Assembly: GCA_002702725.1 (NCBI GenBank)
Contig: PABE01000108.1
Span: 1 to 44,434, forward strand
Reading direction: 5' to 3'
Origin: Porticoccaceae bacterium
Lineage (GTDB): Bacteria > Pseudomonadota > Gammaproteobacteria > Pseudomonadales > Porticoccaceae
DNA length: 44,434 nucleotides
The notes under the pieces were generated by a model. That model was not told the DNA's origin and searched no databases. It saw nothing but the letters and a program-made list of their open reading frames with translations. A program made the position numbers and the translations under genes. Below are positions 23,000-29,571 of this stretch, piece after piece. The stretch's first letter is position 1; each line of letters begins with the position of its first letter.

Positions 23000-24313
23000 T
23001 TACAGCATGCCGGCAAGGGCGGTGGCGATGCCGAGAAAGGCAAAAAAACCGGCGATGTCAGTCACGGTGGTGAGAATAATTGACGAGGACTGTGCCGGAT
23101 CCTGGCCCAGTCTTACCAAGGCGATGGGCACCACCGCGCCGGCGAACCCGGCGATTACCATGGCCAACACCATGGCTGAGCAGATCACCAGAACCAGTCC
23201 GATGGATTGACTCCAAAGGTAGACGCCCACGCCGCAGGTCGCCGCAATACACAGGCCGTTGATCAGGCCGACACGGATTTCCTTGAACATGACCCGCAGC
23301 CAATGCCGGATGCTGATCTCACGCAGGGCCAGGCCGCGCATGGTCACCGCCAGCGCCTGTGCCCCGGCGTTACCGGATTGTCCCGCCACCACCGGCAGGA
23401 GCACTGCCAGTGCTGTAAAGCGTGCGATGGTGTCTTCGAAAAGGCCTACCACAGAGGCTGCGAGGAAGGCGGTAAGCAGATTGATCTGCAGCCAGGGCAT
23501 ACGTTTTTGCACGGCAAACAAAGGCTTTGAGAGGGCACGCTCCTCCCGGCTGGCACCGACCATGGCCAGCACGTCTGAGGAAATATCCTCCTGTGAAACC
23601 TGGACGAGGTTCGCATGGTTGATAATGCCGAGCACTCTGCCGTCGACGTCGAGCACGGGTAAATCGAAAAGGCGGTGTTGTTCAAACAGGTCCGAGATCT
23701 CCTCCCGCGGCGCGGTACTGTTCACCGCCGCGGTCACCGGCTGGACAAGGTGATCAAGGGGAGTCTCGGGGGCGGATGTCGCAATGTCCTGGAGCAGAAC
23801 CTTGCCGGCGAGACGTCCCTCGCTGTCGCTCAGGAACAGGCTGCGGGCGGTTTTCATGCGCGTCGTTCTGAGGGTGTCGAGTGCCTCGCCGGCGGTATTG
23901 TCACCGTGCAGCAGGAGAATCTGCGTATCCATCAGGCGGCCGGCACTGTTTTCCGGGTAGGTCATCAGGCGCTTGATTTCCCGCGCGATGGCGCCATCGA
24001 GTTTTTCCAGGAATGCGGCGCGTTCCTCATCGTCAAGTTGTCCGAGCAGGCGCACGGCCTGTTGTGGCTGAAGCTCCGCCAACAGCTGACAGCCCTTTTC
24101 GGTGGGCAGCGACACGAGCAGGTCGCGGGCCACCTGGGGTACCAGGTGTGGCCACACCGGCAGCAGGGCATAGAGGGGTTGGTCCACCAGTGCTCGCGCC
24201 ACCGCTTCCAGGGGAGTGTGTTCTATTTGTCTTGCCGCATCCCGTGGAAAATCGAGCAGGAATCGGCGGGTCAGGATAGTGTCAGCCGCCTCGCTGGCTT
24301 CGGTGTTGTCCAT
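23000..24313 (-). CDS. mgtE: MgtE-family magnesium transporter
   Basis: This 437-residue protein has the full MgtE architecture: a helical MgtE_N superhelix domain (about 25-130), two CBS domains (about 135-250) that sense Mg2+, a connecting helix, and a five-helix pore (about 275-437). Pore signatures are LPVVAGQSGNAGAQALAVTMRG and TDIAGFFAFLGIA, whose Asp (D418) corresponds to the ion-binding Asp of characterised MgtE. MgtE imports Mg2+ through a CBS-gated channel. The gene directly follows a second MgtE-like frame that lacks the pore (3-base gap), so the two probably share an mRNA. Selectivity for Mg2+ over Co2+ cannot be told from sequence. Confidence 0.93.
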   Translation of the reverse strand: MDNTEASEAADTILTRRFLLDFPRDAARQIEHTPLEAVARALVDQPLYALLPVWPHLVPQVARDLLVSLPTEKGCQLLAELQPQQAVRLLGQLDDEERAAFLEKLDGAIAREIKRLMTYPENSAGRLMDTQILLLHGDNTAGEALDTLRTTRMKTARSLFLSDSEGRLAGKVLLQDIATSAPETPLDHLVQPVTAAVNSTAPREEISDLFEQHRLFDLPVLDVDGRVLGIINHANLVQVSQEDISSDVLAMVGASREERALSKPLFAVQKRMPWLQINLLTAFLAASVVGLFEDTIARFTALAVLLPVVAGQSGNAGAQALAVTMRGLALREISIRHWLRVMFKEIRVGLINGLCIAATCGVGVYLWSQSIGLVLVICSAMVLAMVIAGFAGAVVPIALVRLGQDPAQSSSIILTTVTDIAGFFAFLGIATALAGML

Positions 24314-24316
24314 CGC

Positions 24317-25153
24317 TCAGTCCCTCGCCTTTTCCCGGATGCCGGGCGCTGTCGCCAGTTTCACCAGGCCGATCGCGGCGCTGGCCATGGCCTGGCTCAA
24401 GTGGGTGATCATGTCTTGTTCCCGGTCGGGAGCCGCGCCCTGCGGTTTCGATGCCATGGCCTGAGCCAACGCTTGCCGCGTCAGTGTGCCCAAAAATAGC
24501 CCCTGGGCATTGCGTACCGGTAGAAGGGCACTGTGGTGCCAGAGTGTCGATTCGGCGGCGACGGTCAGGCTCAGTTGGGCGGGAAGGGCGCGGATAGGTC
24601 TGGCGATGAGCGAATCGAGACGGGTATCGCTGTCCGCGGTCAGAAGCCGGTCCAATGGCACCAGCCCCAGGATTTCCTGATTGTCGCTGACAATACTGAT
24701 CGCTATCCCGGTGGGGGTACCTTTGGCCTGAATCAGCGCCAGACACTCTCTGGCGGTCAGGGCGCCTGAGTAGCCCGGACTGGAAAGATCGGTCCATGCC
24801 CCGACAGTCCCGGGGGCAAAGGTCAGGGTTCTCTGCAGATCGCGGGCGAGTTTCGCGGGTAATGCATCGAGAATCTGCCTGCGCCGGTCGGCGGCCAGCT
24901 GGCGCATCAGGGCAGTGATATGGCGGTAGGCCATTTGATTGAGCAGCGCTGCTGCGGTCTCGGTTGCGACATTCTGAACCAATCGTGCCGCCGGCCAACT
25001 CTCCATGGATTCGATCACCGGGGCCATTATCCGTGCCGGTGCCCGGGCCGCGAACTGTGCCGCCTCCGCGGGATCGAGTTGCTGGATCACCCGCGCCGCT
25101 GCCGCGGGCTTCAGTGCCAGGAAATCAAGACTTAAGGGCTGGTTCTCACTCAT
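24317..25153 (-). CDS. Soluble MgtE-like protein (MgtE_N plus CBS domains, no pore)
   Basis: The 278 residues resemble only the cytoplasmic half of MgtE. An N-terminal helical repeat region runs to about 125 (LKPAAAARVIQQLDPAEAAQFAARAPARIMAPVIESM, MAYRHITALMRQLAADRRRQILDALP). A CBS-like pair follows to about 235 (SGALTARECLALIQAKGTPTGIAISIV, ALLPVRNAQGLFLGTLTRQALAQAM). No transmembrane helix is present, so this is not an intact transporter. It overlaps the MscS-like gene by 8 bases and lies 3 bases before mgtE. A regulatory or assembly partner of the full MgtE is a reasonable inference. A gene decayed from a duplication is less likely, because the frame is intact and tightly coupled. Confidence 0.8.
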   Translation of the reverse strand: MSENQPLSLDFLALKPAAAARVIQQLDPAEAAQFAARAPARIMAPVIESMESWPAARLVQNVATETAAALLNQMAYRHITALMRQLAADRRRQILDALPAKLARDLQRTLTFAPGTVGAWTDLSSPGYSGALTARECLALIQAKGTPTGIAISIVSDNQEILGLVPLDRLLTADSDTRLDSLIARPIRALPAQLSLTVAAESTLWHHSALLPVRNAQGLFLGTLTRQALAQAMASKPQGAAPDREQDMITHLSQAMASAAIGLVKLATAPGIREKARD

Positions 25154-25958
25154 CGTCAGGTGCCCCGGTCAGTAGCTGAAGTGTTTCGTTCAGACACAGG
25201 CTTGCCGGGACAAGATGCCTGCCCGCAATGGTTTCCAGAACCATGGCGGTGGCGGTGAATTCCAGCACCCGGCCTTCTGTGCCGGCCACTGCCACCCTTT
25301 GGCCGATATCGACTACCTGACGCAGGTGCCGGACGGCGATCAGATTTTCCACAAGGGTCCGGGCACCAAGACCAAAGGCCAGACCAAAGCCGCCGAGTAC
25401 AGCGGCCAGGGCAATGGCGAAGAGAATGATGACAAAGGTAACGTCGATGCCGGCTTGAGACAGCCCGAGTACAACGCCCACGGCGACGAAACTGGCCTGA
25501 GTCAGGCGCGCCAGGGCCGGTGCCTGGGGCAGTTCGATATTGCGGATGATCAGCTCCCGGGCGATGGTTCCAACCAGAAATCCCGCGACGATCAGTATTC
25601 CGGCCGCCACCAGGGAGGGAAGATAGATCACCAGTCGGTCAAGCCACTGTGCGACGCCGACAAAACCCACCAGTCGTACGGCAATGGTCAGAGCAATCAA
25701 CAGGGTCGCCCAAAAAACAAGAATGCCGACCAGTCGCTCAGCGGTGGGGGAAATGTGGGCAAAGCTCAGTGCCGACAGATTGAGGCGGCGGTCCAGCAGA
25801 TGGTTAACGGAGTGAATAATGCGCCCGACGATAAGTCGCAGTATGCGGGCCAGGATCCAGCCTGCGATAACGACCAGTACGGCGCCGGCCAGGCTCGGCA
25901 AGAGTGCGATCACCGTTGCCAAGACTTCCAGGCTTTGCTTTTCAATGGTTTCCAGCAT
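25146..25958 (-). CDS. MscS-like small-conductance mechanosensitive channel family protein
   Basis: This 270-residue membrane protein starts with a helix (ALLPSLAGAVLVVIAGWILARILRLIVGR) of the conserved TM-helix type found in MscS relatives. Three or four more helices follow, then a Gly/Ala-rich pore-like helix (AVLGGFGLAFGLGARTLVENLIAVRHLRQVVDIGQRVAV) matching MscS TM3 plus the start of the beta domain. The rest is short: the beta domain is abbreviated and the large C-terminal vestibule seems missing. It overlaps the soluble MgtE-like gene by 8 bases and is the first gene of the leftward run. Channel activity and ion are unproven; coupling to magnesium transport is inferred from context. Confidence 0.82.
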   Translation of the reverse strand: MLETIEKQSLEVLATVIALLPSLAGAVLVVIAGWILARILRLIVGRIIHSVNHLLDRRLNLSALSFAHISPTAERLVGILVFWATLLIALTIAVRLVGFVGVAQWLDRLVIYLPSLVAAGILIVAGFLVGTIARELIIRNIELPQAPALARLTQASFVAVGVVLGLSQAGIDVTFVIILFAIALAAVLGGFGLAFGLGARTLVENLIAVRHLRQVVDIGQRVAVAGTEGRVLEFTATAMVLETIAGRHLVPASLCLNETLQLLTGAPDDE

Positions 25959-27577: not shown

Positions 27578-28075
27578 TCAATGTTTGTCGCGCATCATTC
27601 TGTCTAGCAATCCCATCATGAATGCGGAAACGACGAAGGTAATATGGATCACCACATACCAGAGCAGTTTGTCGTTGTCGACCTGTTGGGCGTTCATGAA
27701 TATTTTCAACAGGTGGATAGAAGAGATCGCGACGATACTCGCCGCCACCTTGTTTTTCAGGCTGCCGGTGTCAAGCTTGCCCAGCCAGCTGAGTTTATCG
27801 TCGCTCTCCTTGAGGTCGAGCTGGGAGACGAAGTTTTCGTAACCCGATAGCATGACCATGACAATCAGCCCACCGACCAGGGAAATATCCACCAGGGACA
27901 ATACCAGCAGAATCAGGTCCATCTCGGAGATGGTCAGCAGGTGCGGGATGACATGCACCAGCTCCATGAAAAACTTCACGCCCAGGGCCATCAGGGCGAC
28001 ACTCAGGCCGAGATAAATTGGGGCCAACAGCCAGCGCGAGGCGTACATGCCGCGTTCAAGGGTCTTTTCGATCAT
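27578..28075 (-). CDS. yqhA: YqhA-family (UPF0114/TIGR00645) inner-membrane protein
   Basis: This 165-residue protein has about four membrane helices. Characteristic family blocks are the start [92 protein letters not shown], and a terminal helix followed by LDRMMRDKH. The family is conserved in Gammaproteobacteria but has no assigned function. It is convergent with ppnN, and its neighbours suggest no pathway. Family recognition is strong. Confidence 0.93.
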
Positions 28076-28275
28076 ATTGAGCCATTCACTGCCAGGGGGT
28101 AGAAGGCGCCATTCTACTGAACCTCGGTCCGGCTATCGAGGGGGCACGGCTTGATCTTTTACTTCACCTCGATGAGTGGCTAGACTTGCGCCAAATCACC
28201 TAACGCTACGCCGGCATCCGCACAGGGATGTGGCCAGTCATCTTTGCCAACACCCGATTTACCAAGACCCGAGAT

Positions 28276-29571
28276 ATGATAAGACGGTTGCTGTTTCCCA
28301 TTACCGCATTACTGCTTTCCGATGCGCTCCTGTTGGCGGGCCAGGGACTGGTGCTGACCCTGCTTCCCCTTCGGGCGGAGATACAGGGCTTTTCGGCCAC
28401 AGAAATTGGCTGGACCGGTTCCGCTTATTTCATGGGCTTCGTGGTCAGCTGTTTTGTTACACCCCATATAGTCCGGCGGGTGGGACACATTCGTACCTTC
28501 GCCGTACTCACCACGCTCTACTCAGCGGTGATACTGTTGTTCCATGTGCTTTCCCTGGTGGAGTGGTGGCTGGTTTTGCGCCTTGTTGTCGGCTTCTGTA
28601 TTTGCGGACTTTTCATGGTCATCGAAAGCTGGCTTAACGAACGTTCCACCCAGGAGTCCCGAGGCACTATTCTTTCGATCTATACCGTGATCAACCTGAG
28701 CATGATCATCCTCGGTCAACAGCTGCTGAACGTGGCCGATCCGTCCGGACCAATGTTGTTTGGCCTGGCGGCAATTCTGCTCTCGCTGGCAATTATCCCG
28801 GTCTCCCTGACGGTGACCCTGGCCCCGGCACCCATGCACGCCGTCAAGCTGGATTTGCGGCGTCTCTGGCAGCTATCCCATGTCGGGATGGGCGGTGCAA
28901 TCGTCAGCGGTCTGGTCACCGGGGCTTTCTGGTCCATGGGGCCGTTGTTCGCCCGGGGTCTTGACCTGGACACCCGCACCCTGACCCTGCTGATGAGCGC
29001 TGTGGTGCTCGGCGGGGCTGTTTTCCAGCTGCCGTTGGGACGCCTCTCCGATCACTACGACCGGCGCCTGGTGCTGTTTTATGTGTCCGTGGTGGGGGTG
29101 GGGCTTTCCCTGCTCATGGCCTACCTGTCACTGTCAGGGTTGGCGTTATTGCTGTTGGCACTGTTCTGGGGCGGAAGTGTCATGACCCTGTACGCCATCA
29201 GTCTTGCCCATGCCACCGATAGCGCGTCCGGCGATGACTTCGTGATGGTAGGCAGCGGTATCCTGCTGGTATACGCGATCACCTCGGCCCTGGGCGGCCC
29301 CCTCGCGTCAGCGCTGATGGCGTTGATGGGTGCAGGGGGACTGTTTGTCTTTTCCGCCCTTTGCCAGCTGGTGTTTGCCCTGGGGATTTCCCTGCGTCGC
29401 AAGACCCATGTGCTGCCCGTCATCGACGAGACCGAGCCGTTCCGGGCGCTTACCGATACGTCTCCGGTGCTTTTTGAGATGGATCCGCGTATCGACAGCG
29501 AGCCGTCTGAGGAGAATGACGACGCGCCCGCAGACGCCTCGCAATCGCGAGCATCAGACGCGCAGCAGTAA
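28276..29571 (+). CDS. MFS transporter (YcaD-like)
   Basis: This is a major facilitator superfamily carrier with 12 predicted helices in about 431 residues. The motif following helix 2 is PHIVRRVGHIRTF, and the family-like ESWLNERSTQESRGTILSIYTVINL and GRLSDHYDRRLVLFY are present. A charged, Asp/Glu-rich cytoplasmic tail of about 55 residues follows the last helix. Blocks such as GFSATEIGWTGSAYFMGF resemble the YcaD group, whose substrates are unknown. The frame also opens at ATG 28228, adding 16 polar residues; the ATG at 28276 places helix 1 right after the start and is preferred, although its Shine-Dalgarno is weak. It is convergent with the flavoprotein gene. Confidence 0.85.
   Translation: MIRRLLFPITALLLSDALLLAGQGLVLTLLPLRAEIQGFSATEIGWTGSAYFMGFVVSCFVTPHIVRRVGHIRTFAVLTTLYSAVILLFHVLSLVEWWLVLRLVVGFCICGLFMVIESWLNERSTQESRGTILSIYTVINLSMIILGQQLLNVADPSGPMLFGLAAILLSLAIIPVSLTVTLAPAPMHAVKLDLRRLWQLSHVGMGGAIVSGLVTGAFWSMGPLFARGLDLDTRTLTLLMSAVVLGGAVFQLPLGRLSDHYDRRLVLFYVSVVGVGLSLLMAYLSLSGLALLLLALFWGGSVMTLYAISLAHATDSASGDDFVMVGSGILLVYAITSALGGPLASALMALMGAGGLFVFSALCQLVFALGISLRRKTHVLPVIDETEPFRALTDTSPVLFEMDPRIDSEPSEENDDAPADASQSRASDAQQ

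Follow-up and report, generated by a model that had tools for sequence, protein, structure and literature searches.

A gene trio pairing a complete MgtE with a poreless MgtE half points to a so far undescribed type of magnesium-entry control

What does an MgtE half without a pore do beside a complete MgtE, a channel whose published form is a homodimer with a sensor for the ion it carries? The question is raised by three adjacent genes, here called A, B and C, on the minus strand at positions 23000-25958 of a 44,434-nucleotide stretch of DNA from a Porticoccaceae bacterium (contig PABE01000108.1; the whole stretch is hereafter the window). As first described, the genes share direction, overlap by 8 bases and are then separated by 3 bases, a layout that the coordinates of the open reading frames (ORFs) confirm. 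Such a trio may represent a form of magnesium-entry control not described before: we tentatively read A-B-C, at somewhat short of even chances, as an accessory MgtE-type Mg2+ channel under the control of partner subunits and not of cytosolic Mg2+ alone. The genes and their junctions are as follows.

25146..25958, minus strand: gene A, CmpX/MscS-like membrane protein of 270 amino acids (aa) (ORF, PF05552, model, fold matches)
25146..25153, minus strand: A/B overlap of 8 bases (ORFs; the same 8-base overlap is common, and the usual one, in relatives)
24317..25153, minus strand: gene B, free-standing MgtE cytosolic half with no pore, 278 aa (ORF, Pfam, profile, fold)
24314..24316, minus strand: B/C gap of 3 bases (ORFs; in relatives often, and usually, a 4-base overlap)
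23000..24313, minus strand: gene C, complete MgtE-type channel (437 aa) belonging to a separate clade (ORF, Pfam, tree)

Inheritance of the three genes

A search of 58 relatives with B returned any match in 23 genomes, and on larger stretches 10 genomes of the order, the window's among them, proved to carry A-B-C arranged alike, despite differing flanking genes. Scanning public genomes with C, we obtained 80 C-type loci from Gamma-, Beta- and Alphaproteobacteria and one metagenome-assembled genome labelled Nitrospinaceae. Ten of them end too near upstream (L052, L055, L057, L069, L070, L074, L076, L101, L116 and L122); at all 70 loci with enough upstream contig, A-B-C was found in order, with intact frames in 68 cases, the exceptions being L087 with a split A and L090 with a broken B.

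The class sample contained the full trio in 27 of 369 genomes: B was recognised in 26 among the matches listed, and the search with A gave the same 26 plus G177, which also carries the full trio. Across the samples, C lies in broken frames in G303, and contig ends truncate the trios of G211 and G823. Two apparent absences of A were rejected, as the assembly of G831 has an N run at this place and in G357 A lies upstream of one inserted gene. This gene, encoding 578 aa between A and B (L158, 4936-6672), is the sole insertion seen inside the trio. All 6 positive genomes of the phylum sample (398 genomes) have A-B-C, and in two orders B was present in at least 7 of 57 and at least 2 of 36 genomes, two of the seven being cut by a contig end or N run; with the E-value cut-offs of 1e-20 and 1e-36 used in the phylum and order samples, and with counts taken among the matches listed, B counts are lower bounds. 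Cultured hosts among the carriers include Pseudoalteromonas piscicida, Sneathiella, Panacagrimonas and Pseudomaricurvus.

The distribution of the trio is patchy across genomes and all-or-none as a unit, and the protein distances of A, B and C agree with one another (r 0.84-0.88 over 105 trios, 0 of 500 permutations). That the three genes form one functional unit is therefore strongly supported and very probable. The co-conservation left open by the preliminary description is borne out by the 70 reachable loci and the class sample, and the middle gene, occurring wherever the C type occurs and the contig reaches, is neither sporadic nor decaying in relatives.

The same data bear on the idea of a tandem mgtE duplication with B as its degenerating remnant, for which we see next to no chance. 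B is indeed the fastest-evolving member of the trio (median pairwise identity 0.26 vs 0.33 and 0.52 for the other two) and one B frame is broken, but the protein has invariant positions and a confident fold and is intact in Alpha-, Beta- and Gammaproteobacteria; given this cross-class conservation and the intact frames, a decaying mgtE duplicate was rejected as the origin of B. Also rejected were a phage origin, as the phage collection held no match to B, and a one-genome artefact or frameshifted MgtE, as B retains its own frame and start in relatives.

A poreless MgtE half and its channel paralogue

In agreement with the preliminary description of the middle protein as an MgtE cytosolic half without its pore, B of the window matched MgtE_N (1.4e-13) but not the pore domain PF01769, and the CBS match (0.0098) was below cut-off. 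Among 65 B proteins, Pfam found MgtE_N in 65, CBS in 60 and PF01769 in none, and by profile B matched MgtE cytosolic domains at 1e-19. The predicted structure (predicted local distance difference test score, pLDDT, 88.3) shows a helical domain followed by a CBS pair, with one more helix at the C-terminus, and its top 11 PDB matches are MgtE, so that both the N domain and the CBS-pair fold of the MgtE cytosolic part are present. The FliG middle domain, with which B shares a helical-repeat fold, was also matched by 22 of the 65 B proteins (Pfam).

24824..25129, minus strand: B residues 9-110, MgtE_N-type helical domain (Pfam, model)
24452..24802, minus strand: B residues 118-234, CBS pair with invariant W205 (73/73) (alignment, model)
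24350..24424, minus strand: B residues 244-268, additional C-terminal helix (model, pLDDT blocks 56-79, lower confidence)

C, on the other hand, has the full MgtE architecture, with Pfam matches to MgtE_N, CBS (two stretches) and PF01769 (2.3e-33). It shares with Thermus thermophilus MgtE (TtMgtE; 2yvx/2zy9/5x9h) the N domain, CBS pair, plug and pore domain as well as the pore aspartate, while B shares the cytosolic fold; the trio differs from TtMgtE in that an MscS-like protein and a separate paralogue of the cytosolic half are encoded along with the channel. The pore aspartate of TtMgtE is D432, and the positions of its Mg2+-sensor acids are those of the MgtE structure papers. D419 of C aligns with D432 and is kept in 73/73 C proteins and 19/19 ordinary MgtEs, and the pore region (the AGQSGNAGAQ stretch) is conserved.

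23498..23575, minus strand: C residues 247-272, plug/linker, strongly conserved in the clade, MVGAS..ERALS..FAV.KR.PW (alignment, conservation)
23027..23398, minus strand: C pore domain PF01769, including D419 (codon 23057-23059) (alignment)

The C clade is distinct, with a median pairwise identity of 0.55 within the clade and 0.29 to ordinary MgtE, and profile scores of 473-717 bits for the C type vs 233-312 for ordinary MgtE (broken G303 excluded). When the two groups were compared at matched overall identity (median pairwise 0.55 for C, 0.54 for ordinary MgtE), the membrane part and plug core were more conserved in C (0.83 and 0.81 vs 0.73 and 0.72) and the CBS part less so (0.57 vs 0.74). 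Conservation is highest in the membrane part of C, a protein that to judge by its sequence retains the MgtE pore.

The cytosolic sensor presents a different picture. Ordinary MgtEs keep D91 (19/19), D95 (19/19), D226 (17/19), D247 (18/19) and D250 (19/19), whereas the corresponding numbers out of 73 are 0, 0, 4, 5 and 3 for C and 4, 1, 17, 4 and 1 for B. The D91/D95 columns of C are gaps in one alignment; a second alignment places residues there, still with no acid. Most of the acidic Mg2+-sensor sites between the N and CBS domains were thus found neither in C nor in B. Most ATP-site residues, taken from passages of PMC5529423, likewise differ from TtMgtE, D188 being kept in 58/73 C proteins. 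With most MgtE sensor acids missing from B and C, B resembles the sensor in shape and probably differs from it in chemistry. The proposal in the preliminary description that B is a dedicated sensor subunit is therefore not supported in that wording, as both proteins lack most of the acids with which ordinary MgtEs sense cytosolic Mg2+.

The replaced sensor acids could also mean that C is no longer a channel and that the trio is a sensing device (transceptor) reporting Mg2+ or tension. C scored 232.0 bits against TIGR00400, slightly below its cut-off of 232.75, and the hosts carry another MgtE (see below), both of which would suit this explanation. Nevertheless, we regard it as very improbable in view of the conserved pore region, the universally kept pore aspartate and the conservation of C peaking in its membrane part.

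To place B relative to C, we built a tree of the cytosolic parts from 30 of 73 B proteins, 30 of 73 C proteins, 19 ordinary MgtEs and TtMgtE. B, C and ordinary MgtE were each monophyletic (support 0.998 for B and 0.986 for C), and B was sister to C with a joint support of 0.904. By sequence, B is an ancient copy of the cytosolic half of C, with the membrane part lost, and the sister clades point to a single origin of B by duplication in this clade, before its spread. Since B is a paralogue of the very half with which it would pair, a heteromer is favoured; to this extent the hetero-oligomer proposed in the preliminary description has become likelier.

A CmpX-type membrane protein and putative partner

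PF05552, the mechanosensitive-channel helix, was matched in A in two stretches (Pfam). The predicted structure of A (pLDDT 85.8) gave MscS-family channels in all 50 listed PDB fold matches, and its pore helix and beta-domain fitted MscS with an E-value of 7e-8 (84 columns at 1.4 A to 7raz).

25170..25439, minus strand: A residues 174-263, pore helix resembling transmembrane helix 3 (TM3) plus short beta-domain (model, fold matches; the protein ends there)

By sequence, PF00924 was found in 17 of 65 A proteins, and Pfam found the C-terminal vestibule domain PF21082 in none of the 65. A therefore shares the TM3-like pore helix and beta-domain with E. coli MscS (2oau) but lacks the vestibule domain, and its N-terminal membrane part is different. 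The CmpX-like protein of locus L210 shares 29% identity with A over 254 aa (E 2e-20), which places A in the CmpX branch of the MscS family. L210 contains CorA, A-like, sigma factor and OprF genes in a row, matching cmaX-cfrX-cmpX-sigX-oprF of Pseudomonas aeruginosa, and we infer from this gene content that it is a pseudomonad-type cmpX locus.

According to passages of PMC7641640, the three P. aeruginosa genes are transcribed together, CmaX being a CorA homologue and CmpX a predicted MscS-like protein; passages of PMC10965496 present CmpX as an MscS homologue and proposed membrane sensor. As in the trio, a Mg2+-channel gene (the CorA-like cmaX) shares an operon with a CmpX-type MscS-like gene in these accounts. 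The two systems differ in that the Pseudomonas channel is a CorA and not an MgtE, that the third gene product has 84 aa and is not an MgtE cytosolic half, and that sigX-oprF follow. In the window neither a CorA-like gene nor sigX stands beside the trio, whose neighbours are tamA and ppnN, and MgtE is not mentioned in the text of PMC7641640. The preliminary description contained neither the CmpX-type nature of A nor the known occurrence of CmpX in an operon with a CorA-like Mg2+ channel.

Genes for A-like proteins without B and C adjoin extracytoplasmic function (ECF) sigma factor genes in L210, L211, L216 and L217 (L210 by Pfam, the others by eye). Short A-like membrane proteins of 232-250 aa are encoded in L212 (4754-5452), L213 (4970-5710), L214 (4590-5342) and L215 (4506-5240), next to an amylase-type (trehalose/glycogen-like) or mannosylglycerate-synthase-like gene, a setting that hints at a connection with compatible solutes; here Pfam was run on L212 and L215, and the other neighbours were assigned by eye.

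With A lacking the C-terminal MscS domain and its gene overlapping that of B, B might be the missing cytosolic domain of A and gate A, leaving C as an independent Mg2+ channel. The MgtE cytosolic module can serve another pore: passages of PMC9276622 describe long CorA homologues with an N-terminus resembling MgtE, and FlgY of flagellar motors is a further case of the module away from its own pore. FlgY, however, has the helical domain only, the CorA cases are single fused proteins, and in the passages covered neither is paired with a full MgtE. We consider B as a domain of A improbable, because the CmpX-type protein of L210, the one scanned, has no vestibule domain either although it occurs without B, so that B is not needed as a replacement; moreover, the paralogue of B is C and not A, and C itself has changed in its sensor residues and conservation pattern.

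A further explanation is that A and C are independent channels, A acting in osmotic or envelope stress like CmpX, with B a soluble CBS regulator and the operon serving co-production only. The P. aeruginosa operon, for which the passages covered describe no complex between CmpX and the CorA-like protein, would fit, as would the A-like genes found without B and C beside ECF sigma factor or amylase-type genes and the inserted gene of G357. We judge it possible though on the unlikely side: the near-strict order and overlap of the genes, the derivation of B from C and the shifted conservation of C argue for contact at least between B and C.

Host setting and the proposed control of magnesium entry

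A further MgtE pore protein is present in 39 of 40 trio genomes, the exception being G304 (88% complete). In the window's genome the other MgtE (G000:C40) keeps D91, D95, D226, D247 and D250 and an acid at 255 (alignment). As hosts nearly always have an ordinary MgtE, the trio would provide an additional Mg2+ route under special control, probably one linked to stress of an osmotic or envelope kind.

Among 86 loci there was no fixed fourth gene. The recurrent neighbours were AstE/AspA-like (16, the highest count), RimK (14), RimB-like zinc protease (11), CorA (8), CNNM (8), MscS-like (7; 721 aa or shorter) and cation efflux genes (5), as raw counts with related loci included and one representative per family scanned with Pfam. 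RimK, RimB-like or AstE/AspA-like loci include L059, L065, L067, L068, L072, L083, L092, L095, L098 and L105. Immediately upstream of the trio and on its strand, L038 (9146-12282) and L041 (8874-12010) contain a CorA-like gene and an MscS-family gene (721 aa) that share 10 bases, a second pairing of Mg2+ channel and MscS within the cluster. In the window, the trio is followed downstream by tamA and then tamB (the latter assigned by position and order only) and flanked upstream by the divergent ppnN; a UPF0114 membrane protein (27578-28075) and a major facilitator superfamily (MFS) transporter (28228-29571) are encoded nearby, as they are in 4 and 5 of the 86 loci, respectively, related genomes included. 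An Rfam scan of the window gave no family at threshold, so no Mg2+ riboswitch was seen in the operon, and a promoter/terminator scan gave 0 promoter-like sites and no more terminator-like sites than shuffled sequence.

In the reading that we tentatively prefer, A-B-C is an operon, inherited together and translationally packed, that would serve an accessory Mg2+ channel system. B would pair with the cytosolic half of C as these halves pair with each other in an ordinary MgtE homodimer, resulting in a heteromer or a dimer capped by B; whether B touches C is an even call. With most Mg2+-sensor acids gone from both proteins, gating would be set by the state of the partners and not by cytosolic Mg2+ alone. 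A would pass membrane tension or osmotic state on to C via the strongly conserved plug/linker and membrane region of the latter, although it is doubtful that A gates C, and this is the weakest step. The bolder version, where A, B and C assemble into a single hetero-oligomeric Mg2+ channel gated by tension, an MgtE dimer with B in place of its own Mg2+ sensor and A opening or closing it, seems to us rather unlikely.

Several points weigh against partner control. B/C contact, Mg2+ transport and the tension response are all inferred from sequence, the support for B plus C (0.904) is moderate and comes from a thinned sample, and the 19 ordinary MgtEs used for comparison are mostly relatives of the window. 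C is acidic at three sensor positions (E216 in 62/73, E255 in 58/73 and D259 in 66-67/73) and 30/73 B proteins have an acid at D226, so that some Mg2+ binding may remain. CmpX-type A-like proteins exist without B and C, and A need therefore not be a subunit of a Mg2+ channel. Finally, MscS is a heptamer and MgtE a dimer, so that a joint complex has no obvious stoichiometry.

Literature text searches, with subscription journals mostly outside their reach, found, in titles, abstract openings and the passages covered, no account of an MgtE that has an MscS-like protein or a paralogue lacking the pore as its partner, in line with the preliminary view of the composition as undescribed. The finding gives A and B a testable role and extends the unexplained pairing of Mg2+ channel and CmpX in Pseudomonas to MgtE. 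If the proposed control is real, Mg2+ entry can come under subunit or mechanical control; should the tension-gated complex exist, cells would admit Mg2+ on membrane stress and, together with CorA-CmpX, two unrelated Mg2+-channel families would be paired with CmpX-type mechanosensitive proteins.

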